DNA from: a virus
DNA length: 36,447 bases
IMG/VR virus record: IMGVR_UViG_3300036652_001431
Coordinates: 1 to 36,447 of that record
Direction: 5' to 3' (one strand)
Shown here: one piece after another, positions 20,091 to 36,447 of the stretch
Layout: every line of letters starts with the position of its first letter
How positions within the stretch are numbered: the stretch's first letter is position 1
Notes under the pieces: generated by a model
The model's input: only the letters and a program-made list of their open reading frames with translations
Told to the model about the DNA's origin: nothing
Database searches by the model: none
Program-made: the position numbers and the translations under genes

Positions 20091-20126
20091 GCATGTACCT
20101 CCACCACTCCTGGAGGTACGAGATGC
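20091..20126 (+). promoter_or_regulatory. Hairpin over both candidate start codons of the recombinase
   Basis: GTACCTCC (20095-20102) and GGAGGTAC (20112-20119) form a perfect 8-bp stem with a 9-base loop. Outside it GCAT (20091-20094) and ATGC (20123-20126) can also pair. The stem takes in the ATG at 20093 and the GGAGG and ATG of the alternative start at 20123. Confidence 0.5.
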
Positions 20127-21250
20127 CACGCAGCAAGATCAGCCTCGGCACCATGGTCGAGAACTACCTGGACGTGCGGCAGCGCCTGGGAACGGCCGAG
20201 AGCACCCTGGTAGGGGAGCGGACCGAACTCCGGCGGCTGGTCCGGATGGTCGGAGACACCGACGTCGCGACCTGCTCCACCCCGGTCCTGTGGGCCTACT
20301 TCTACGGGGACGGCGGCCTGCGGGACATCCACTACGACGGGCACGGCCGGGAGTGCCAGCCGCTTGCCGCATCGAGCCACAACATCTCCCTCGTCCGGGT
20401 CCGGCAGTTCTTCGAGTTCTGCGTCCGGCAGGGTGTGATCCGCAAGAACCCGATCCAGAAGGAGGACGGGTTCAAGCCCATCCCCGTCCCCCAGAAGATC
20501 CGCCAGCAGCCCTCGGCCAGCACCTTGCTCAGGATGCTGGGCAGCACCGAGGAGCCCATGCACCGCGCCTACCTGGCCTTCGCGATCAACACCGGCATGC
20601 GCCAGGTGGACATCTCGGCCCTGCGGATCGGCCACCTGGACCTGGACGAGGGGTGGGTCGAGGCCAAGATCCACAAGACCAAGGACGCTGACATGGTCCC
20701 GATCACCTCCGACCTGGACCGGGAGATGCGGACCTGGCTGGCGGCGTACGCGAAGAACCTCGGGATCACCCTGAAGGAGTTGGACCCGGAGTGGTACCTC
20801 TTCCCCAAGCGGTGCGTCACGCTGCGCTCGAAGGGCATGAAGGGCCAGTTCGACACCGACAACGTCAAGGCGTTCGAGTACATGTCGGAGTACCCCGTCG
20901 GGCGGACCTCGGACATCGTCAAGGACGCCATGGCGCGGGTGGGCCTGAAGACGGACGGTGAGGGCACCCACACCATCCGGCGGGGTGTCGCTCGCGCGCT
21001 GTTCGACCTGCTGACGTCCCAGGGGGAGCACGACGCTTCCGCGCTGCGGACGGTCTCGGCCCTGCTGCACCACAAGAGCACGGCTACCACGGAGAGATAC
21101 CTCGGGCTGACCACCGAGAAGGCCCGGCGAAACCGGGTCATGAAGGGCAAGTCGCTGCTGACCCAGATGGTCAAGCAGGAGGAGGCAAAGGTGGTCGACA
21201 TCAACAAGGGGGCCAGGAGGCGGTCCCGAGGTGGGGTCGAGGCGGTATAG
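20093..21250 (+). CDS. int: Tyrosine recombinase / integrase family protein
   Basis: A 385-residue protein. An N-terminal SAM-like DNA-binding region (residues about 15-125) precedes a catalytic domain with NTGMRQVDI (Arg170), HTIRRG (His293, Arg296), LLHHKSTATTERYLG (His326/His327, nucleophile Tyr336) and a KTKD lysine loop near residue 197. The set is complete, so it should be active. It may integrate the phage or resolve genome multimers. No excisionase or attP could be identified. The start is ATG 20093 (GGAGG site, short leader) or 20123. It directly precedes the terminase, an unusual place for an integrase. Confidence 0.85.
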   Translation: MYLHHSWRYEMPRSKISLGTMVENYLDVRQRLGTAESTLVGERTELRRLVRMVGDTDVATCSTPVLWAYFYGDGGLRDIHYDGHGRECQPLAASSHNISLVRVRQFFEFCVRQGVIRKNPIQKEDGFKPIPVPQKIRQQPSASTLLRMLGSTEEPMHRAYLAFAINTGMRQVDISALRIGHLDLDEGWVEAKIHKTKDADMVPITSDLDREMRTWLAAYAKNLGITLKELDPEWYLFPKRCVTLRSKGMKGQFDTDNVKAFEYMSEYPVGRTSDIVKDAMARVGLKTDGEGTHTIRRGVARALFDLLTSQGEHDASALRTVSALLHHKSTATTERYLGLTTEKARRNRVMKGKSLLTQMVKQEEAKVVDINKGARRRSRGGVEAV

Positions 21251-21323: not shown

Positions 21324-22901
21324 GTGTCAGAGACTGATGTCCGTATTGACGACGACCTCACCGTCGAAGAGATCACGGACGAGACAGACGCGGAGCGCCG
21401 CGCTCGCGAGGAGACCGAGGTCATCCTCGATGAGGTCTCACAGGCGATGGTCGACCGTCTCGTGGACAAGATCCTTCTCATCACGGACGAGGTCTCTGGC
21501 CACCCGCTCTACCCCTACCAGATTCCGTTCGCCCGCCGGGTCATTGAATCCCTGATCGTCGGTGACGGCGAGACCATCACCGCGCTCTTCTCCCGGCAGT
21601 CCGGCAAGTCCGAGACAGTGGCCAACGTCGTGGCCACGTGCATGATCATGTTCCCGGTGCTGGCCAAGATCTTCCCGGACCTGATGGGCAAGTTCAAAGA
21701 GGGCCTGTGGGTCGGAGCCTTCGCCCCCGTGGACTTCCAGGCCGACAACCTGTACGGGCGCATAGTGGCCCGCCTTACCAGCGACCGCGCCGTCGAGGTC
21801 ATGTCTGACCCCGAGATCGACGTGAAGTTGCTCCCCAAGGGGAACACGCTGTCCCTGAGCAACGGCTCCATGGTCCGAAAGCAGACCGCCCACCCCCGGG
21901 CCACCATCGAAGGCAGCACCTACCACCTGACCCTCATTGACGAGTGCCAGGGTGCGGACTCCAAGGTGGTCAACAAGTCCATCGCGCCCATGGGCACTGC
22001 CACCAACGGCACCATGGTCTTCACCGGAACGCCTACGTACGAGAAGGGCATCTTCTACAACCAGATCCAGTTCAACAAGCGCGCTGGTCTCCGCAAGGGC
22101 GCGCGGATGAACCACTTCGAGGCGGACTGGCGCGACGCAGGAAAGGCGAACCCGAACTATCTCAAGCGAGCCAAGAAGGAGATGCTCCGTCTGGGTGAGG
22201 ACTCCGACGAGTTCAAGTTGGCCTACCGCCTGATCTGGCTGCTCGACCGAGGCATGTTCGTGACCGCTGAGCGGTTGGACGAACTCGGCGACAACACAAT
22301 GGAGACGATCAAGTCCTACCACGACTCGGCCGTGGTCATCGGAATCGACCCGGCCCGCAAGCAGGACTCCACAATCGTCACCGCAGTCTTCGTGGACTGG
22401 GCCCACCCGGACGCCTACGGCTTCTACCACCACCGGGTGCTGAACTGGCTTGACCTCCAGGGCGACGATTGGGAGGAGCAGTACTTCCGGATCGTGGAGT
22501 TCGTCCGCAACTACCGCGTCTTCGCCATCGGCATCGACTCCGGTGGTGTCGGTGACGTCGTGGCCTCCCGGCTCAAGCGCCTTCTTCCTGACATCCACAT
22601 CGTGGAGATGGGCAGCCAGCGGCCGGACCAGTCCAAGCGGTGGAAGCACCTCATGGAACTGATCGAGCGACGGAAGATCGGGTGGCCTGCTCACTCCCGG
22701 ACTAAGCGTCTGAAGACTTACCGCCGCTTCCGTCAGCAGATGGAAGACCTGGAGAAGAAGTTCGAGGGCCCGTACGTCCTGGCCGCCGCTCCTAAGGCCA
22801 CTGACGCCCACGACGACTACGCGGACAGCCTGGCTATCGCCTGCATGCTCTCCCACGAGTTCACGATGCCGGAGATCGAGGTCTCCTCAGTACCTTGGTG
22901 A
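21324..22901 (+). CDS. terL: Terminase large subunit
   Basis: A 525-residue protein. Walker A-like SRQSGKS at 90-96, Walker B LTLIDEC with Asp206 and Glu207, and a motif III-like FTGTP. The C-terminal nuclease domain has GIDPARK (Asp342), GIDSGG (Asp405) and DAHDDYADS (Asp494-Asp501), matching the RNase H-like terminase nuclease. It packages DNA into procapsids at the portal. No small terminase subunit is evident next to it. Start GTG 21324. The length is normal for the family. Confidence 0.95.
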   Translation: MSETDVRIDDDLTVEEITDETDAERRAREETEVILDEVSQAMVDRLVDKILLITDEVSGHPLYPYQIPFARRVIESLIVGDGETITALFSRQSGKSETVANVVATCMIMFPVLAKIFPDLMGKFKEGLWVGAFAPVDFQADNLYGRIVARLTSDRAVEVMSDPEIDVKLLPKGNTLSLSNGSMVRKQTAHPRATIEGSTYHLTLIDECQGADSKVVNKSIAPMGTATNGTMVFTGTPTYEKGIFYNQIQFNKRAGLRKGARMNHFEADWRDAGKANPNYLKRAKKEMLRLGEDSDEFKLAYRLIWLLDRGMFVTAERLDELGDNTMETIKSYHDSAVVIGIDPARKQDSTIVTAVFVDWAHPDAYGFYHHRVLNWLDLQGDDWEEQYFRIVEFVRNYRVFAIGIDSGGVGDVVASRLKRLLPDIHIVEMGSQRPDQSKRWKHLMELIERRKIGWPAHSRTKRLKTYRRFRQQMEDLEKKFEGPYVLAAAPKATDAHDDYADSLAIACMLSHEFTMPEIEVSSVPW

Positions 22902-23506: not shown

Positions 23507-23536
23507 TCACAGCGCCTGTTGGTAGGAGGTCTCGCC

Positions 23537-23890
23537 ATGCCGTCGGTCGTTCCCGCCCAGGTGCTGGACCTCAATATCGACGCAGGGGCCACCTTCAGCG
23601 AAACGTTCCAACTCGTTGACGTGAACAGCAACCCGGTCGCCGGGCTCACCGGATACATCGCGACCTTCCAGGTTCGCAAGACCATGCGAGACGGCTACCT
23701 CTTCCTGAACAAGACCCCGTCGTTCGATGCGACCACCGCCACGATCACCCTGACTCTCACGGCCGCTGACACCTCCTCTCTCGTTCAAGGCAAGTTCGTC
23801 TACGGGATCGAACTCGCTGCGGCCTCCGGTGAGCCGGTCATTCGCATTGTCCAGGGCGCGATCTATGTGGACCCGGAGGTTGTCCGATGA
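23537..23890 (+). CDS. About 118-aa beta-sandwich fibre-associated protein, copy A
   Basis: A 117-residue protein from ATG 23537, with TAGGAGG upstream. The pattern [44 protein letters not shown] and [10 protein letters not shown] is that of a small Ig/BppU-like beta domain. The protein at 35382 has the same layout ([43 protein letters not shown]). Both genes overlap the following collagen-like gene as ATGA. It is probably a fibre base or attachment subunit; that role is inferred from context. Confidence 0.75.
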
Positions 23891-25071
23891 GCGTCGGACC
23901 GTTCGAGGTTCTCGTTCAGGGCGCTGGACCGGCTGGACCCACTGGTCCGACCGGCCCCTCGGGCCCGTCCGGGCCTTCCGGGCCTACTGGTCCTCGCGGC
24001 GCGACTGGCCCCACCGGCCCCAATGGGGTCACCGGCCCGACCGGGCCGACAGGCCCCACAGGTGCTGGGGCTACCGGAGCGACCGGTCCCACAGGTGTTG
24101 CCGGTCCCGCAGGCGTGACGGGTGCCACCGGTCCTGCTGGGGCCACTGGCCCGGATGGATTCACCGGAGCGACCGGTCCCCAGGGCGTCGTTGGCGCGAC
24201 AGGTTCCATTGGTCCGACCGGGCCTGCTGGAGCGACCGGTCCCGTCGGAGCGACAGGAGCGACAGGACCCCAGGGTCTGACCGGGTTGGTCGGTGCCACT
24301 GGCCCTGTTGGGGCTACGGGAGCGGCCGGTGGCAATGGCGTCACCGGGGCCACCGGCCCGACCGGACTTGTTGGAGCCACCGGTCCGGCAGGCCTTACCG
24401 GCTTGGCCGGTGCCACTGGTCCTACGGGCCCGGCCGGTACTGCGGGGGCGATAGGCGCAACCGGGCCTACTGGTCCGACTGGTCCTGCCGGTGTCACGGG
24501 TCCGGCGGGGACAAACGGGGTTGGGGTTACGGGAGCAACCGGACCCGCAGGCGCAACCGGACCTGTCGGGCTTCCCGGGGCTACGGGTGCTACCGGCGCA
24601 GTGGGCCCTGCTGGAAGTAACGGGACGGCAGGTGTCACCGGCCCGGCCGGGCCTGTGGGCGCAACCGGAGCGACCGGTGCCATTGGACCCGCTGGCGCTA
24701 CCGGTGCTTCCCCAGCAATCACCTACGGAACCACGGCTGGCACCGTGACGCAGGGCAACGACCCGCGTCTGTCCGACCAGCGCACCCCCTCCGACGGCTC
24801 CGTGACCTCCCCGAAGATCGCCACTGGTGCGGTCGCGAACACGAACTTGGCGAGCGTCCCAGCATCCACCATCAAGGGGAACAACACCTTCTTCTCCGCG
24901 CCCCCGCAAGACCTGGGGCTTACGGATCTGACGGACATGCTCGACGGTGTTCTGACGGCGGCCCAGGTGGTGGTCGACCAGACCGGTGGCTTGGCCGGTC
25001 CCAAGGTCCAGCAAGCACTTCAGGCGCTATACGCCGACGTCCAGGCCGCCAAAGACCCGTTGTTCGAGTGA
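23887..25071 (+). CDS. Collagen-like tail/receptor fibre protein A
   Basis: A 394-residue protein from ATG 23887. A 12-residue head is followed by about 255 residues of uninterrupted-looking Gly-X-Y triplets (mostly GPT, GAT and GPA), a collagen-type triple helix. The C-terminal 120 residues ([40 protein letters not shown]...) match the trimerising region common in phage fibres. Triplet codons use Gly GGN with much synonymous variation, which limits exact repeats. It is likely a trimeric fibre on the virion surface. Confidence 0.9.
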
Positions 25072-28097: not shown

Positions 28098-29825
28098 ATG
28101 AGTTTCACATTCGTCAGCCCTAGCCAGCGGGCCTCGGGGAGCGACCTCACTGTCGCCATTTCCCCGCTTGGGCTCGTTGAACTGGCTGACGAAGAGTTCG
28201 AGGTTCATGGCCCCCGGCTCAACCGCTACGCCCAGAACTGGGCCTTCTACCTCGGCCACCACTGGGGTTACCGCCGCGAAGCGGGCGAGCCCCAGATCAC
28301 CTTCAACTACGTGAAGGCGTTCGCCGATTACATCAACAACTTCACCTTCACCCGAGGCGTTCACTTCGGCTGCGTCAAGCAGTACGAGCACATCATCCCA
28401 GCGCTGCTCAAGCGCGTCTGGGAGGTGGACAACAGCAAGACCAACGTCATGTGGGAGATGGGCCAGTACGGCGGCGTCAACGGCGACGTGTTCGTGAAGA
28501 TCGCGTGGGAAGAGCCCTGGCAAGACGCTGTCGGTGACATGCACGCGCCTCGGGTGCGCATCATGCCCCTGAACCCGGCCTTCTGCTTTCCGGAGTGGCA
28601 CCCCCATGACCGTGAGCGCCTGATCCGGTTCAAGTTGAAGTACCGGTTCTGGGCCACCAGCGCGGAAGGCACGCGCCAGGTCTACACCTACACCGAGATC
28701 CTGACCGACGAGACCATCGAGGAGTACATCAACGACGAGTTGGTGGACTCGCGACCCAACCCGCTCGGCGTCATTCCGATCACGCACATCGCCAACTCGT
28801 ACATCGCAGGGTCCCCGTGGGGGCTCGCAGACATCGCGGACATCGTCTCGATCAACCGTGAGTACAACGAGAAGGCGACCGACATCTCCGACATCATCAA
28901 CTACCACGCCGCTCCCGTAACCATCATCACGGGTGCCAAGGCCTCCAACCTGGAAAAGGGCGCGAAGAAGGTCTGGGGTGGCCTGCCCAAGGAAGCCCAG
29001 GTCTTCAACCTGGAGAACGGCGTCGACCTGGCCGGACCCATGTCCTACCTGGAGATGCTCAAGCGCACGATGCACGAGATCACCGGAGTCCCGGAGTCGG
29101 CTCTGGGCCAGATGCAGCCCATCTCGAACACCTCGGGAGTGGCCCTGGCCATCGCGTACCAGCCGCTGATGCAGCGCTACGCCATGAAGAAGATGCAGTA
29201 CACCAAGGGTCTGAAGCAGATCAACGACCACATCCTGCGGACCTTGTACTGCTTCGAGCCTGAGTCCCTAAAGTACGACCCGACCACCGATGGCGTCATC
29301 AACCCCGAGACCTTCGACGGTCCGCTGGCCATCGACCCCGGCGACCCGCTGGCCTACGTGACGGAGGCCGAGTGGCCTCCGCCGCTGCCCGTCGACAAGT
29401 TGATCACGCTCAACGAGATCCAGATGCGGATGCAGGTCGGTCTGGAGTCGAAGATCGGAGCCCTTCGCGAACTGGGAGAGGAGTTCCCTGCGGACAAGAT
29501 GCAGGAGATCTTCGAGGAGCAGATCGCGGATGCGAAGCAAGCGGGCGCGCTGTCGCTTGTCAAGTCCCAGATCGCTTCCGCTATCGTTGCCCTGACGGGA
29601 ATCGCGCCGGAAGGCGTCGAAGGACCGGAGCCTCAGGAAGACGCTGACGGCAACCCGATCAACCCGCCCACCGGGCCCAACCCGGTATCGACTCCGCCTG
29701 GTGGTGGCGACCCGTTCGCCGCGAAAACACCCGACGAGGTCATGCAGATGATGACGGATCTGGTTACGCAGGCCTACGGGACCAAGTTCCCGCAGCGGCG
29801 TAACCCATCGGAAGACGGCGACTAG
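28098..29825 (+). CDS. Portal protein (SPP1 gp6-like)
   Basis: A 575-residue protein from ATG 28098. YAQNWAFYLGHHWGYRREAG, ITFNYVKAFADYINNFTF and MWEMGQYGGVNGDVFVKIAW are typical of the SPP1-type portal N-terminal region. VPESALGQMQPISNTSGVAL lies in the wing/stem region, and helices follow to about residue 500. The last 60 residues are Pro/Gly-rich and probably flexible. Twelve copies should form the DNA-entry vertex that docks terminase. Ribosome site is weak. Confidence 0.92.
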   Translation: MSFTFVSPSQRASGSDLTVAISPLGLVELADEEFEVHGPRLNRYAQNWAFYLGHHWGYRREAGEPQITFNYVKAFADYINNFTFTRGVHFGCVKQYEHIIPALLKRVWEVDNSKTNVMWEMGQYGGVNGDVFVKIAWEEPWQDAVGDMHAPRVRIMPLNPAFCFPEWHPHDRERLIRFKLKYRFWATSAEGTRQVYTYTEILTDETIEEYINDELVDSRPNPLGVIPITHIANSYIAGSPWGLADIADIVSINREYNEKATDISDIINYHAAPVTIITGAKASNLEKGAKKVWGGLPKEAQVFNLENGVDLAGPMSYLEMLKRTMHEITGVPESALGQMQPISNTSGVALAIAYQPLMQRYAMKKMQYTKGLKQINDHILRTLYCFEPESLKYDPTTDGVINPETFDGPLAIDPGDPLAYVTEAEWPPPLPVDKLITLNEIQMRMQVGLESKIGALRELGEEFPADKMQEIFEEQIADAKQAGALSLVKSQIASAIVALTGIAPEGVEGPEPQEDADGNPINPPTGPNPVSTPPGGGDPFAAKTPDEVMQMMTDLVTQAYGTKFPQRRNPSEDGD

Positions 29826-29902: not shown

Positions 29903-30676
29903 ATGTCTGACCTCGACCCGTCTGACGACGGCACCATCACGATCCCGGTTCCCCCGCCCCCGGCCAACCCCGCTGACTCCATCTTCACCAAGGAAGATGT
30001 CGAGCGGCTTCTAGGCAAGGCGCGGCAGGAGGAGAAGGACAAGGTCTACGGCCGCCTCTCCAAGTACGAGGAGACCCTGAAGCAGACGCAGACCGAACTG
30101 GAGGCGTTGCGCAAGGCCAAGGAGGCCGAGGAGGCAGAGCGCCTGGCCAAGGAGGCCGACAAGGCCGCAGCCGCCAAGGCGAAGTTTGAGGAGGACGCGT
30201 CCGCGAAGGATCTGCTCAAGGCGCAGCAGAAGGAGTACGAAGCCAAGTTCGCAGCGTTGGAGCAGGCCCGCGAGCAGGACCGGACCCTCCTGGAGAAGGA
30301 GCGAGAGTTCTCCGCCTTGCGTGAGTTCACACAGAAGCGCATCGCCGAAGAGCGCGATTCCATCGCGCCGGAACTCCTGGTGTACGTTAGTGGTAACACC
30401 GAAGCCGAGGTCGAGCGTAGTATCGACCTTGCGAAGCAACAGAGTCAGGCGCTTGCCTCCTCCTTCCAGGAAGCACAGCAGCGGGCTCGCGCTTCGCTTC
30501 GCGGAGTGGCCCCCACGGGACTCACTCCGTCGGGACCTCTGGACACAGACTCGGCGCACAAATCGTTCTCACCCGATGAACTGAAGAACATGTCGATGGC
30601 GGACTACGCCAAGTACCGGGACAGTCTGCTGGGGACTGCACGAACCGCCCAGCGCAACCGTGGTCTGTACGGCTGA
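29903..30676 (+). CDS. Scaffolding protein
   Basis: A 257-residue protein from ATG 29903, with AAGGAG upstream. It is a long charged coiled coil (residues 30-150, rich in Lys, Glu and Ala, such as ETLKQTQTELEALRKAKEAE). A proline-rich N-terminus and a short C-terminal capsid-binding-like end (MSMADYAKYRDSLLGTARTA) complete it. Composition and position between portal and capsid are those of phage scaffolding proteins, which guide procapsid assembly and are then lost. Confidence 0.88.
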   Translation: MSDLDPSDDGTITIPVPPPPANPADSIFTKEDVERLLGKARQEEKDKVYGRLSKYEETLKQTQTELEALRKAKEAEEAERLAKEADKAAAAKAKFEEDASAKDLLKAQQKEYEAKFAALEQAREQDRTLLEKEREFSALREFTQKRIAEERDSIAPELLVYVSGNTEAEVERSIDLAKQQSQALASSFQEAQQRARASLRGVAPTGLTPSGPLDTDSAHKSFSPDELKNMSMADYAKYRDSLLGTARTAQRNRGLYG

Positions 30677-30716: not shown

Positions 30717-31760
30717 ATGTCCTCAGCAATCACCGGTACCCCCAACCTTGCGGGGTCCCCCACCGGCTACACGGGTGGCGCGAACACCCAGTTGGCAGCC
30801 GCCATCCAGACCATCTGGTCCAAGGAGATCCTCTTCCAGGCGATGCCGATCCTGCGGTTCGAGCAGTTCGCCGTCAAGAAGACCGAACTGGGTGTTCAGC
30901 CCGGTCTGACGATCAACTTCATGCGGTACAACAACCTGGGTCAGGCTTCGCAGTTGACCGAGGGCGTGCGCATGCAGACGGCCGCGCTGACCGCGAGCCA
31001 GTTCAGCATCACCGTCGCGGAGCACGGTTTCGCCGTGGCCGTCTCGGAACTGCTGCTGAACTCGTCCTTCGATGACGTGATGGCCTCGGCCTCGCGTCTG
31101 CTGGGCCGCAACATGGCCCTGTACCTGGACATCTCGGCCCGGCAGACCCTGCTCTCGGCCTCCAGCGTGGTGTACGGGTACGACAGCACCACGGGCGCGA
31201 CCATCACCAGCCGGAGCCCGTACGACAAGGGCACCGTTGGCACCGGCCCCGCCTCCATGACCGGGCTGTACAACCTGTCCCTCCCGGTCGTGCGTGACGT
31301 GGTCGAGACCCTGGCCACCAAGAACGTCCCGAGGCTCGGCGAGACCTACGTCGGCTTCGTTCACCCGCACCAGTCCCGTACCCTCCGCGAGACCCCGGAG
31401 TTCATCGAGGTCACGAAGTACGCGGCCCCGGGCAACTTCCTGCTGGGTGAGATCGGCCGCCTGAACGACGTGGTCTTCATCGAGACCACGCAGGTTCGCA
31501 AGGTGACCACCGGTGCTGGCGCTGGCTGGACCGCTGACACCCTGAACGCCGATGGGACCACCAGCGGCAACGGTGCGACCGACCGCTACGACGCCGTGTT
31601 CATCGGCGACAACGCGTTCGGCCACGCGATCTCGCTGCCCGTCGAACTGCGTGACGGCGGCATCCTGGACTTCGGTCGTGAGCACGCCCTGGCGTGGTAC
31701 GCGATCTGGGGCCTGGGCCTGATCACGGACCAGTCCGTGATCGTGGCGAAGACCAACTAG
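30717..31760 (+). CDS. Major capsid protein (N4-gp56-like, HK97 fold)
   Basis: A 347-residue protein from ATG 30717, with TAGGAA upstream. TIWSKEILFQAMPILRFEQF, GLTINFMRYNNLGQASQLTE, ITVAEHGFAVAVSELLLNSS and ENVPRLGETYVGFVHPHQSR-like regions match the N4-gp56 capsid family. The length is slightly shorter than average. No N-terminal protease-type delta domain is seen, consistent with a separate scaffold. A UUCG-loop terminator follows. Confidence 0.92.
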   Translation: MSSAITGTPNLAGSPTGYTGGANTQLAAAIQTIWSKEILFQAMPILRFEQFAVKKTELGVQPGLTINFMRYNNLGQASQLTEGVRMQTAALTASQFSITVAEHGFAVAVSELLLNSSFDDVMASASRLLGRNMALYLDISARQTLLSASSVVYGYDSTTGATITSRSPYDKGTVGTGPASMTGLYNLSLPVVRDVVETLATKNVPRLGETYVGFVHPHQSRTLRETPEFIEVTKYAAPGNFLLGEIGRLNDVVFIETTQVRKVTTGAGAGWTADTLNADGTTSGNGATDRYDAVFIGDNAFGHAISLPVELRDGGILDFGREHALAWYAIWGLGLITDQSVIVAKTN

Positions 31761-31783
31761 GTCTTCCCCAAGCACTACCTGAG

Positions 31784-31815
31784 GAGGGGGTCGGGGCTTC
31801 GGCTCCGGCCCCCTT
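31784..31815 (+). terminator. UUCG-loop terminator, sister of 32888
   Basis: GGGGGTCGGGGC and GCTCCGGCCCCC pair around TTCG, followed by TTCTTC. It is nearly the same sequence as the terminator at 32888-32919. It should reduce transcription after the capsid gene. Confidence 0.85.
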
Positions 31816-31836
31816 CTTCATGTCCTGGAGGACACC

Positions 31837-32283
31837 ATGGTTGCTGCGCACGACCAGAAGATGACCCTGCACATCGTCGCCCACATCGCGGAGCACGAGA
31901 TGCGGGAGGATGACCCTCACTACCACCTGTTCAACGAGGCCAAGGCCCGCCTCAAGAAGTTGGGCCTCTGGAAGTGCGCCCTGGACGACGACTACTGCGG
32001 TGGCGGTCCGGAACTGCACCACTACCACGTGGAGTTCAGCCAGCAGAACGGCATGGACTTTCACAAGGTGAACCAGGCACTGGGTCTCCACATCGAGAGT
32101 GACGAAGAGTTCGCCCAGTGGATCGAGAGCCCGGGAAACCTAGAGGTCTTGTGCGCCAACCATCACCGGACCCACTTCGGCATCCACGTCCTACCAGCCC
32201 CTCTATGGGAGCCCCTGCGCTACCGGAAGGCTGGGGTCGCGGCTGGTGGAGAGTTCATCGCGGCGAAAGACCTTCCCAAGTAA
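31837..32283 (+). CDS. HNH-type nuclease-like protein
   Basis: A 148-residue protein from ATG 31837 with CTGGAGG upstream. C47...C54 and C106...H109 bracket an ELHHYHVEF (His61/His62) and NLEVLCANHHRTHFG (Asn101, His109, His110) HNH-like betabeta-alpha-metal site. HNH proteins near packaging genes can assist terminase cutting, but this one lies after the capsid gene and might instead be a homing-type insertion. It sits directly after a terminator, so expression may be low or depend on read-through. Confidence 0.78.
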   Translation: MVAAHDQKMTLHIVAHIAEHEMREDDPHYHLFNEAKARLKKLGLWKCALDDDYCGGGPELHHYHVEFSQQNGMDFHKVNQALGLHIESDEEFAQWIESPGNLEVLCANHHRTHFGIHVLPAPLWEPLRYRKAGVAAGGEFIAAKDLPK

Positions 32284-32301
32284 GCGGTTGATAGAAACCT
32301 C

Positions 32302-32330
32302 TTGACAGTGTCGATACCTCCTGTCAGTCT
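32302..32330 (+). promoter_or_regulatory. Dedicated promoter of the Ltp-like lipoprotein
   Basis: TTGACA (32302-32307), 17 bases, CAGTCT (32325-32330): a strong sigma-70-like promoter inside the head operon. AAGCGGTTG (32282-32290), a degenerate operator-family element, lies just upstream. The gene starts at 32372 after GGGAGG. Confidence 0.7.
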
Positions 32331-32371
32331 GGTGATCCGCGATCACTGGCACCCTGGGAGGGAACCGCTAC

Positions 32372-32863
32372 ATGAAGAAGATCGTCACCACGCTTGCCGC
32401 CCTGGCTCTCGGAGCAGCCATGCTTGCTGGATGCGCCGTCAGCACGACTCCCTCGGGGAGCCCGGCCTCCGGCCAACCTAGCCAGGCCGCTCCGGCGAAC
32501 AGCGTTCCGGCCAACATCGTTCCGGCCACGACCGCGCCTGCCGCACCCGCGATGACCGTCTCGCAGCAGCAGGCGGTCCAGTCGGCACAGTCGTACCTGA
32601 GCATGGGGTCCGGCTTCTCGCTGAAGGGGCTCATGCAGCAGTTGACCTCCTCCTCCGGCGAGGGCTTCTCGAAGGCGGACGCGGCGTTCGCTATCCGACA
32701 CCTGCACCCCAACTGGGACGCCCAGGCCGTAGATTCGGCGAAGGGATACCTGAGCATGGGCGGCTTCTCGCGCACGAGCCTGATCCAGCAGTTGACCTCC
32801 TCGTCTGGCGAGGGGTTCACCTTGGCGCAGGCACTTTACGCCGTTAAGGCTGTCGGTCTCTGA
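32372..32863 (+). CDS. Ltp-like surface lipoprotein (superinfection-exclusion type)
   Basis: A 163-residue protein from ATG 32372, with GGGAGG upstream. Signal MKKIVTTLAALALGAAMLAG-C gives a lipobox with Cys21. A Pro/Ala/Thr linker (about 22-60) precedes two tandem repeats of about 44 residues at roughly 68-111 and 117-159. Each has A-x2-YLSMG...FS...L-x-QLTSSSGEGF...A-x-(Y/F)A-(V/I). This is the host-cell-surface lipoprotein (PF07553, Ltp) repeat. The known member Ltp of streptococcal phage TP-J34 blocks DNA injection by related phages. Its own promoter and closing terminator support expression apart from the head genes. Confidence 0.85.
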   Translation: MKKIVTTLAALALGAAMLAGCAVSTTPSGSPASGQPSQAAPANSVPANIVPATTAPAAPAMTVSQQQAVQSAQSYLSMGSGFSLKGLMQQLTSSSGEGFSKADAAFAIRHLHPNWDAQAVDSAKGYLSMGGFSRTSLIQQLTSSSGEGFTLAQALYAVKAVGL

Positions 32864-32887
32864 CGCCTGGATGAAGCGGTTCCCCGG

Positions 32888-32919
32888 AAGGGGGTCGGGA
32901 CTACGGTCTCGGCCCCCTT
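32888..32919 (+). terminator. UACG-loop terminator, sister of 31784
   Basis: AAGGGGGTCGGGAC pairs with GTCTCGGCCCCCTT around TACG, followed by TCTCGTT. The stem differs from that at 31784 mainly at compensating positions near the loop. GAAGCGGTTC (32873-32882), another operator-family element, directly precedes it. Confidence 0.85.
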
Positions 32920-32976
32920 TCTCGTTACCCTTGTCCAAGAAGTGCTTTCACACTCGTGGCTGAAACGGAGAATCCC

Positions 32977-33363
32977 ATGACTCAAGTTGCTACAACCCCC
33001 CAGGCTGCGCAGCGCAAGCGGGCGGCCGACTTCACCGGCCGTCAGGCCCAGGATCTCGCGGCAGCCAGCGCCGAGGAACTGAAGAAGCGCGAAGGCGAGA
33101 TCGCCCTCCGTACCCAGGCCGACCTCGTCGCCAAGAGCGAGATCGTTGACCTGACCGGCAACGGTGTCGTTGACATCACGGACGAGGTCGAGGCCGCTGC
33201 TGCGGTCGAGGTTTCGAATCCGACCCGCAAGATTCTGGTTCGCGAGGATCTGACCGACGTCACCATCGGCTTCGGGAACTCGTACTCCTTCGAGGCGGGT
33301 CGCACCTACATCGTCCCCAAGCACGTCGCTGACCACCTTGAGGCGCAGGGCTACGTCTGGTAG
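32977..33363 (+). CDS. Putative head completion / capsid-associated protein
   Basis: A 128-residue protein. ATG 32977 has CGGAGA; an in-frame GTG at 32956 has no ribosome site. A helical N-terminus (RKRAADFTGRQAQDLAAASA) precedes a beta C-terminal domain (VDITDEVEAAAAVEVSNPTR, TIGFGNSYSFEAGRTYIVPK). Such proteins commonly lie after the capsid gene in actinophages; a precise role is not known. Confidence 0.7.
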   Translation: MTQVATTPQAAQRKRAADFTGRQAQDLAAASAEELKKREGEIALRTQADLVAKSEIVDLTGNGVVDITDEVEAAAAVEVSNPTRKILVREDLTDVTIGFGNSYSFEAGRTYIVPKHVADHLEAQGYVW

Positions 33364-34830: not shown

Positions 34831-35382
34831 ATGGGCCGCCTGGACAACAAGAAGGGCCGGTTCCACGCGGACTTCGAGACCACCGAGATCAACAGGGCGC
34901 TGCTCGGTTGGCAGCAGGAAACCGGAGACACCGTCCTCTGGTACCGGTTCAGCCCGGAGGACTCGGTCACGCACGACATCTACGACGAGGCCACCTTCGA
35001 GGGGAAAGTCTTCGACGGGCCCTACCAGATCGACGTTCTCCACGTCACCCACCAAGAAGGCAGCAACAAGGACACGGACACCGGCTTCTACACGAACGAC
35101 GACCTGCACATCACGGCCTCGTACAACCAGTTGGTCGATGAGGGATTCGTCCACCCCGACCTATTCCCGGCTGGCTACCTGAAGGACCGGATCGTCTATG
35201 ACCAGAAGGTCTTCCGCATCCTGCGCCTGGAGACCCTGGGCCAGATTCACCAGCGAGACATCATCATCGGACTCGACGCCACGCAGGTGAAGCCGGACGA
35301 GTTGGTCAACGACCTCCAGTTCGCGCAGTACGCAGCGGTGGCTCAGCCCAAGCCGCCCTACCTCGGGAAGGTCTACCCCTGA
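34831..35382 (+). CDS. Putative head-tail stopper/closure protein
   Basis: A 183-residue protein from ATG 34831, starting three bases after the adaptor gene. Beta-rich (DTVLWYRFSPEDSVTHDIYD, GPYQIDVLHVTHQEGS, DRIVYDQKVFRILRLETLGQ). Order and size fit the head-closure/stopper position. No diagnostic motif was identified. Confidence 0.65.
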   Translation: MGRLDNKKGRFHADFETTEINRALLGWQQETGDTVLWYRFSPEDSVTHDIYDEATFEGKVFDGPYQIDVLHVTHQEGSNKDTDTGFYTNDDLHITASYNQLVDEGFVHPDLFPAGYLKDRIVYDQKVFRILRLETLGQIHQRDIIIGLDATQVKPDELVNDLQFAQYAAVAQPKPPYLGKVYP

Positions 35383-35741
35383 TGGCTAACGTCCAGTACG
35401 ACATCACTGTGGACGCCGGATACCCGGTCACGGCCACTTTCACCTACCTCGTAAATGGCGCGGTGGTAACCGGCTTCGGGTACTGGAACGCGACCCTCCA
35501 GGTCCGGAAGAACCCGTACCTGACCGACGCGCCGCTCATCAACAAGTCTCTCCAGGTCGACGGGACCACAGGGGACGTAACCCTGGCCCTCACTCCCGCC
35601 GAGACCACGCTTCTCAAGTGGGGCTACTTCATCTACGGCATCGAACTTCAGGACGACGCCTTCAACCCGATTGTGGAACTCGCAGTTGGCAACCTCACTG
35701 TCAACCCGGCCGTGGCACTCGTGCCCCCGGTGGGGCCATGA
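35382..35741 (+). CDS. About 118-aa beta-sandwich fibre-associated protein, copy B
   Basis: A 119-residue protein from ATG 35382 (TGATG coupling). It is a diverged paralogue of the protein at 23537: same length, a [12 protein letters not shown] strand pair, [19 protein letters not shown] in the middle, and a [19 protein letters not shown] end. It overlaps the collagen-like gene that follows. Sequence identity is modest by eye but the order of segments is the same. Confidence 0.75.
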
Positions 35742-36447
35742 GCGGAGACATTGTCGTCAATGCCCCCAGTGGCGAAACCGTCGTAGTCAATGTGCCCAGC
35801 AGCCAAACAGTCTCCGTAACCCCAGCGGCCACTGCCTCCGTACCCGTCACCGTTGGCGGGGGTCCTATCGGTCCTGCTGGTGCGGTTGGGGCAACCGGGC
35901 CGGTCGGAGCCACCGGAGCAGTAGGACCCACCGGGCCCGCTGGGATCACGGGACCAACCGGACTGACAGGCTCTACCGGCCCAACCGGCGTTGCCGGACC
36001 AGCCGGAGTCACTGGACCGGTCGGTCCTGCTGGAGTGACGGGACCCGTTGGTACGCCGGGTGTCACTGGTGCAACAGGTCCCGCTGGGCTCGCTGGCGCT
36101 CCTGGTCCTGCTGGATCCGCAGGACCGTCAGGGGCGACCGGTCCTACTGGCGCGACAGGGCCAGCGGGAACACCTGGCGCAGTAGGTGCTACCGGACCCG
36201 CAGGAGCAGCCGGTGCGGCGGGGCCTGCCGGAGCCACGGGAGCCACTGGTCCTGGGGGCGCAGCCGGAGCAGCAGGAGAAGTCGGTGCCACAGGACCAAC
36301 GGGACTGACAGGTCCGGCCGGTGCGACAGGCCCTGCGGGAGCAGGGGCTACTGGCGCAACCGGACCCGCCGGTCCAGCAGGTGCTACCGGATCCACAGGC
36401 CCTGCCGGTGCGGGCGCTACTGGCGCAACCGGGCCTCAAGGATCCCT
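35738..36447 (+). CDS. Collagen-like fibre protein B, cut by window end
   Basis: Starts at ATG 35738 (ATGA overlap) and is open to the window edge, so about 236 residues are visible. A 45-residue Val/Thr-rich head ([20 protein letters not shown]...) precedes a long Gly-X-Y tract beginning near residue 47 ([20 protein letters not shown]...). The head differs from that of fibre A, implying a different attachment. The C-terminal domain is not visible. Confidence 0.9.

Follow-up and report, generated by a model that had tools for sequence, protein, structure and literature searches.

An Inserted Ltp-Family Lipoprotein Gene, With a Possible Role in Superinfection Exclusion, Next to the Capsid Gene in a Virus Related to Streptomyces Myoviruses

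A gene for an Ltp-family lipoprotein has been inserted 3′ of the major capsid gene, ahead of the following head gene, in the virus examined here (a 36.4-kb record; its full 36,447 nucleotides are hereafter referred to as the window). We consider it reasonably probable that the locus is an acquired cassette, i.e., an exclusion moron gained by horizontal transfer and predicted to stall the DNA entry of an incoming phage. The lipoprotein gene was possibly brought in together with the HNH-type endonuclease gene that precedes it.

Insertion Between the Capsid and Head Genes

The window carries a terminase gene at 21324, a portal gene at 28098 and a probable scaffold gene at 29903, followed by the gene for a major capsid protein of the N4-gp56 family (30717–31760, + strand; TIGR04387 E 3.3e-46), which is 77% identical to that of Streptomyces phages BRock and LuckySocke. 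The nearest isolates by capsid are BRock, LuckySocke, Alone3, pSt2308 and GiJojo (76–77%), and BRock is a myovirus described as virulent and without lysogeny genes (PMC7453282). Immediately 5′ of terL lies a tyrosine recombinase (integrase-like) gene (20093–21250), which the isolates of the phage group do not have. It is also present in the relatives G005 and G006 (contigs L027 and L065), so this branch may be temperate; in the partial genome of the window phage we saw only the integrase-like gene and no repressor gene.

On the + strand 3′ of the capsid gene, the window reads a terminator-like hairpin adjoining the capsid gene (hairpin 1, 31782–31819), the HNH-like gene (31837–32283), the lipoprotein gene (32372–32863), a second hairpin (hairpin 2, 32886–32921) and a conserved head gene (32956–33363). 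The locus recurs in a second contig, L083, with 100% identity over 9,073 bases, so this arrangement is not an assembly slip. Two modules (23519–25071 and 35382–36447) each comprise a small protein and then a collagen-like Gly-X-Y stretch, with the small proteins 39% alike, and both contigs stop at the second of these collagen-like stretches, at about 36,445.

The conserved head gene directly follows the capsid gene in relatives. Of the 84 capsid relatives compared, 80 are IMG/VR loci and four are isolate records, with BRock in both sets. By tblastn both neighbors are visible in 77 of them, and in none of these 77 does an Ltp gene lie in between. Leaving aside the identical contig L083, a search for PF07553 over the whole available records gave no match in 18 other records (17 distinct phages), a set that includes four isolate genomes of 112.5–115 kb and several environmental records that are fragments. 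The absence of Ltp both from the junction and from the whole records shows that the gene was inserted, and the comparison with relatives lacking the locus, which the sequence-only reading had put forward as a check, thus comes out in favor of that reading. The possibility that Ltp is ancestral in the phage group was rejected on the same 0 of 18 records.

The capsid-to-head gap is 96–107 nt in the four isolates (annotated) and −1 to 122 nt in the environmental loci (projected), with L004, L017 and L057 as the exceptions. The longer gaps in L004 and L017 are explained by longer versions of the head gene rather than by insertions. In L057, an endonuclease VII gene occupies the same capsid/head junction (L057:7123–7695), which indicates that this site takes insertions. 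Gaps of approximately 500 nt were also noted between the scaffold and capsid genes of L056 and L057, and the head operon of this phage group seems to accept extra genes at several junctions.

Both hairpins are strong, with −34.5 kcal/mol and z −5.2 for hairpin 1 (region 31780–31820) and −32.0 kcal/mol and z −6.5 for hairpin 2 (region 32886–32927), and no shuffled sequence was as stable as either. The two lie within a direct repeat whose 46-nt copies are 74% identical, and GGGGGTCGGG occurs in the window at these two places only. Neither hairpin has a real U-run; hairpin 1 barely passes a terminator pattern and hairpin 2 fails it. Termination at the two sites seems probable from their structure and conserved position.

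A strong hairpin lies immediately 3′ of the capsid gene in most relatives, and a capsid terminator is for this reason taken to be ancestral. Two of the closest relatives, L003 and L005 (80% by capsid), read AAGGCGGGTCRGG...CCCGCCTTCGTCGTTACGCT there. Taken together with its flanks, hairpin 2 scores 50 in alignment to L005 (500 shuffles: mean 17.6, maximum 34), and hairpin 1 gives just 28, inside the shuffle range. The tail TCGTTA is likewise common to hairpin 2, L003, L005, L027 and L065 and is missing from the 3′ flank of hairpin 1. On this sequence comparison, hairpin 2 is the ancestral putative terminator of the capsid gene, orthologous with its flanks to that of the relatives, and the cassette (hairpin 1, the HNH gene and the Ltp gene) accordingly lies between the capsid stop codon and the old terminator. 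Hairpin 1 either came with the insertion or was duplicated by it. The idea that the cassette ends in a terminator of its own is ruled out by these scores, and the picture of two sister terminators bracketing an inserted cassette has to be revised: the insertion is upheld, and only hairpin 1 falls inside it.

The HNH-type gene encodes 148 aa and is probably a homing endonuclease or a hitchhiker. Its proposed identity is borne out by a match to phrog_8048 (E 5e-4) and by 32% identity to the HNH endonucleases of Bacillus phages AR9 and PBS1. The family is found in 24 viral contigs at 59–100%, the 23 other loci being at 59–70% identity, and in L097, L101, L103 and L115 it lies between the terL and portal genes of a related backbone. 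Its presence at other sites in related phages marks this HNH family as a mover. An Ltp gene was found beside none of the 23 other HNH loci, and the closest Ltp loci are without an HNH gene of this type; a fixed HNH and Ltp pair was rejected on these grounds.

The Lipoprotein and the Charge of Its Repeats

The lipoprotein gene encodes 163 aa with a short signal peptide and lipobox LAGC (MKKIVTTLAALALGAAMLAGC, read straight from the sequence), in which Cys is residue 21, so that export and lipidation are predicted. A disordered linker rich in Pro, Ala, Ser and Thr continues to about residue 60, followed by three-helix repeats at residues 63–111 and 115–160. The two repeats match PF07553 with 104.8 bits against a curated cut-off of 23.2, each passing the cut-off on its own, and the protein matches PHROG 4980 and 15667 (“superinfection exclusion”) at 2.8e-33 and 4.2e-26. 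An AlphaFold2 model built with 50 sequences has a pLDDT of at least 95 in the repeats and three helices per repeat. With this model, the first and second ranks in Foldseek are chains A and B of 4EQQ (E 2.6e-5 and 7.6e-5; rmsd 1.4–1.7 Å) and nothing else is significant; superposition on 4EQQ gives an rmsd of 1.4 Å over about 99 columns and a TM of 0.86–0.89 by target. A PDB sequence search with the protein returned no match, and the fold search alone gave 4EQQ. Ltp-family membership was tested and is borne out by the two PF07553 repeats, the lipobox and the TP-J34 Ltp fold. The sequence-only reading of an Ltp-like gene at 32372 with two repeats and a lipobox is confirmed, and its assignment to the Ltp family is well supported.

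The closest full-length relatives of the protein come from viruses, namely contigs L198 and L199 (both 55%) and L202 (52%). Many bacterial genomes, those of actinobacteria among them, also encode PF07553 proteins, with a best chromosomal match of 65% over the repeats, and because of this abundance the family is not purely one for exclusion. Base composition as a mark of recent transfer was uninformative, the GC and GC3 of both the HNH and the Ltp gene being inside the range of the neighboring genes.

The repeats of the window protein hold 6 basic and 5 acidic residues (net +1), compared with 12 basic and 16 acidic residues (net −4) in TP-J34 Ltp. Across 159 relatives, a set in which the window gene is itself counted once, the repeats have a mean net charge of −5.9, and 13 relatives equal or exceed the window protein. 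Both repeats (32552–32860) read TSSSGEGF where many relatives read SEYGEGF, which in part accounts for the near-neutral charge. In TP-J34 Ltp, the repeats are reported to use acidic residues to bind an incoming phage's tape measure protein (PMC3952083). In that mechanism, the acidic repeat surface pairs with the basic C-terminal region of the tape measure protein. A net charge of +1 makes it unsafe to assume such a contact here, and the acidic-patch mechanism published for TP-J34 may not hold for the window protein. The kept Ltp fold means that binding of a tail component is still the best guess.

Related Ltp Loci

The PF07553 prototype is Ltp of TP-J34 from Streptococcus thermophilus (PDB 4EQQ, the only solved Ltp), which has been shown to exclude phages by targeting the tape measure protein (PMC3952083). 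It has the same lipobox, disordered linker and two helical repeats as the window protein, and both exceed the Pfam cut-off, but the repeats are only about 28% identical in sequence and BLASTP gives no alignment. The two also differ in net charge and in location: TP-J34 ltp belongs to the lysogeny module beside int, whereas the window gene lies among head genes, 11 kb from the integrase-like gene.

Gordonia phages of the Dexdert/GTE6 type are actinophages of another lineage in which a PF07553 gene is found in the packaging/head region just 5′ of the portal gene. In Dexdert, the layout is much the same as in the window: the Ltp gene (L092:4725–5234) lies between strong hairpins of −28.2 and −31.5 kcal/mol and has no good promoter match; its protein shares 48% with the window protein over half the protein, and no HNH partner is annotated alongside. 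This suggests a recurring arrangement in actinophages, in which Ltp genes within structural operons are bracketed by hairpins. The best isolate match (54%) is gp76 of Gordonia phage Sour, with two PF07553 repeats at 136.8 bits and a strong hairpin following its gene, which unlike the window gene is near a genome end among small genes.

Morons of lambdoid phages are extra genes, accompanied by a terminator-like hairpin, between genes that are adjacent in relatives. The window gene does lie between two genes that are adjacent in 77 relatives. It differs from these morons in its weak promoter candidate and in having brought no terminator of its own along, the hairpin behind it being that of the host operon (the ancestral one, by the alignments above) and the extra copy lying upstream.

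The locus had been thought of interest on the view that Ltp-type exclusion was characterized in phages of Firmicutes, an argument for novelty that does not survive: 45 of the 86 matching phage records are Gordonia phages, the PF07553 protein of GTE6 was published in 2015 (PMC4524720), the Ltp-type proteins of Propionibacterium freudenreichii phages PFR1 and PFR2 were discussed in 2024, and the Ltp-like protein gp41 of C. acnes was studied in the same year (PMC11480721). Ltp genes in actinophages are thus already known, some in a similar setting, and the locus is a clean and well-documented further example whose discovery value is modest. Ltp-type exclusion was worked out in dairy streptococcal phages, and dozens of actinophages carry the domain with no more than a label attached to it. 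An insertion this clean, with an identifiable ancestral terminator and empty-site relatives, together with repeats that lack the acidic excess of TP-J34, makes the locus a handy test of the tape-measure mechanism across the family.

Expression, Proposed Role and Alternatives

The promoter that the sequence-only reading had assigned to the lipoprotein gene (TTGACA-N17-CAGTCT, 32302–32330, + strand) is present in sequence and spacing but is weak. The −35 hexamer at 32302–32307 is perfect, and the −10 CAGTCT shares only its A and its last T with TATAAT (2 of 6), giving 8 of 12 consensus positions for a sigma-70-like candidate. A general promoter scan with a stricter rule found none at the locus and 4.2% of the 88-nt stretches of the window reach the same score, so a strong promoter of its own is unsupported for the Ltp gene. 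Between this candidate and the lipoprotein start is a perfect palindrome, GTGATC-CGC-GATCAC (GTGATCCGCGATCAC, 32332–32346, no strand assigned), a possible operator. As a repeated operator it was rejected, since the window has this single exact copy and matches with 2 mismatches are at chance level; 6-nt inverted repeats of this kind number 3.4 per kb in the window, so the palindrome could have arisen by chance.

The explanation we prefer starts from a relative of the BRock-group myoviruses of Streptomyces, which are virulent. This relative would have gained a second hairpin copy, the HNH gene and the Ltp gene between its capsid gene and the old terminator. With the hairpin duplicated, most capsid transcripts would still end at their former place, and read-through or the weak promoter candidate could supply modest expression of the lipoprotein. 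The protein would then be exported and lipid-anchored on the outer face of the membrane, where its two three-helix repeats, held on a flexible linker, may attach to some component of an incoming tail's injection apparatus and so stall DNA entry, an effect predicted from its family. What counts against this explanation is the net charge of +1, the frequency of PF07553 proteins in bacteria, the lack of a repressor gene among those seen in this partial genome and the late-operon position, which is odd for exclusion in a lytic cycle.

That position, in a group with virulent isolates, raises an alternative in which the lipoprotein is made from the late operon and acts in the late phase rather than in lysogens. 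It would shield the producing cell and membranes so that progeny are kept from injecting into debris or cells already infected, along the lines of a proposal made for Llp, a T5 lipoprotein. We regard late-phase protection as rather doubtful. The Ltp gene does belong to the head operon, 3′ of the capsid gene, the nearest isolates are virulent (as BRock, without lysogeny genes; PMC7453282), and the apparently lytic Gordonia phage GTE6 also has an Ltp gene (PMC4524720); however, hairpin 1 should lower read-through from the capsid gene, and the tyrosine recombinase gene at 20093–21250, shared with G005 and G006, means that the branch may be temperate. In a combined reading, to which we assign a low probability, an Ltp-family lipoprotein with near-neutral repeats, in a myovirus lineage with virulent isolates, would be expressed from the late head operon and either exclude phages through a target other than the tape measure protein or protect progeny late in infection.

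Another account makes the lipoprotein a passenger without a selected role, the insertion having been driven by the mobile HNH endonuclease. The varied sites of this HNH family in related phages and the unrelated endonuclease VII gene that L057 has at this junction are in keeping with it, but this seems quite improbable as the lipoprotein gene is intact, with a signal, a lipobox and both repeats complete, and has a GC3 like that of its neighbors, and 0 of 23 other HNH loci have an adjacent Ltp gene. A surface lipoprotein derived from the host, altering the lysogen surface for reasons other than exclusion, would be in line with the wide occurrence of PF07553 in actinobacterial genomes (65% over the repeats in the best chromosomal match) and with a net charge unlike that of TP-J34. 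We judge it very unlikely, given that the closest full-length relatives lie in viral contigs (52–55%) and that the phage families with the PF07553 domain are annotated as exclusion.
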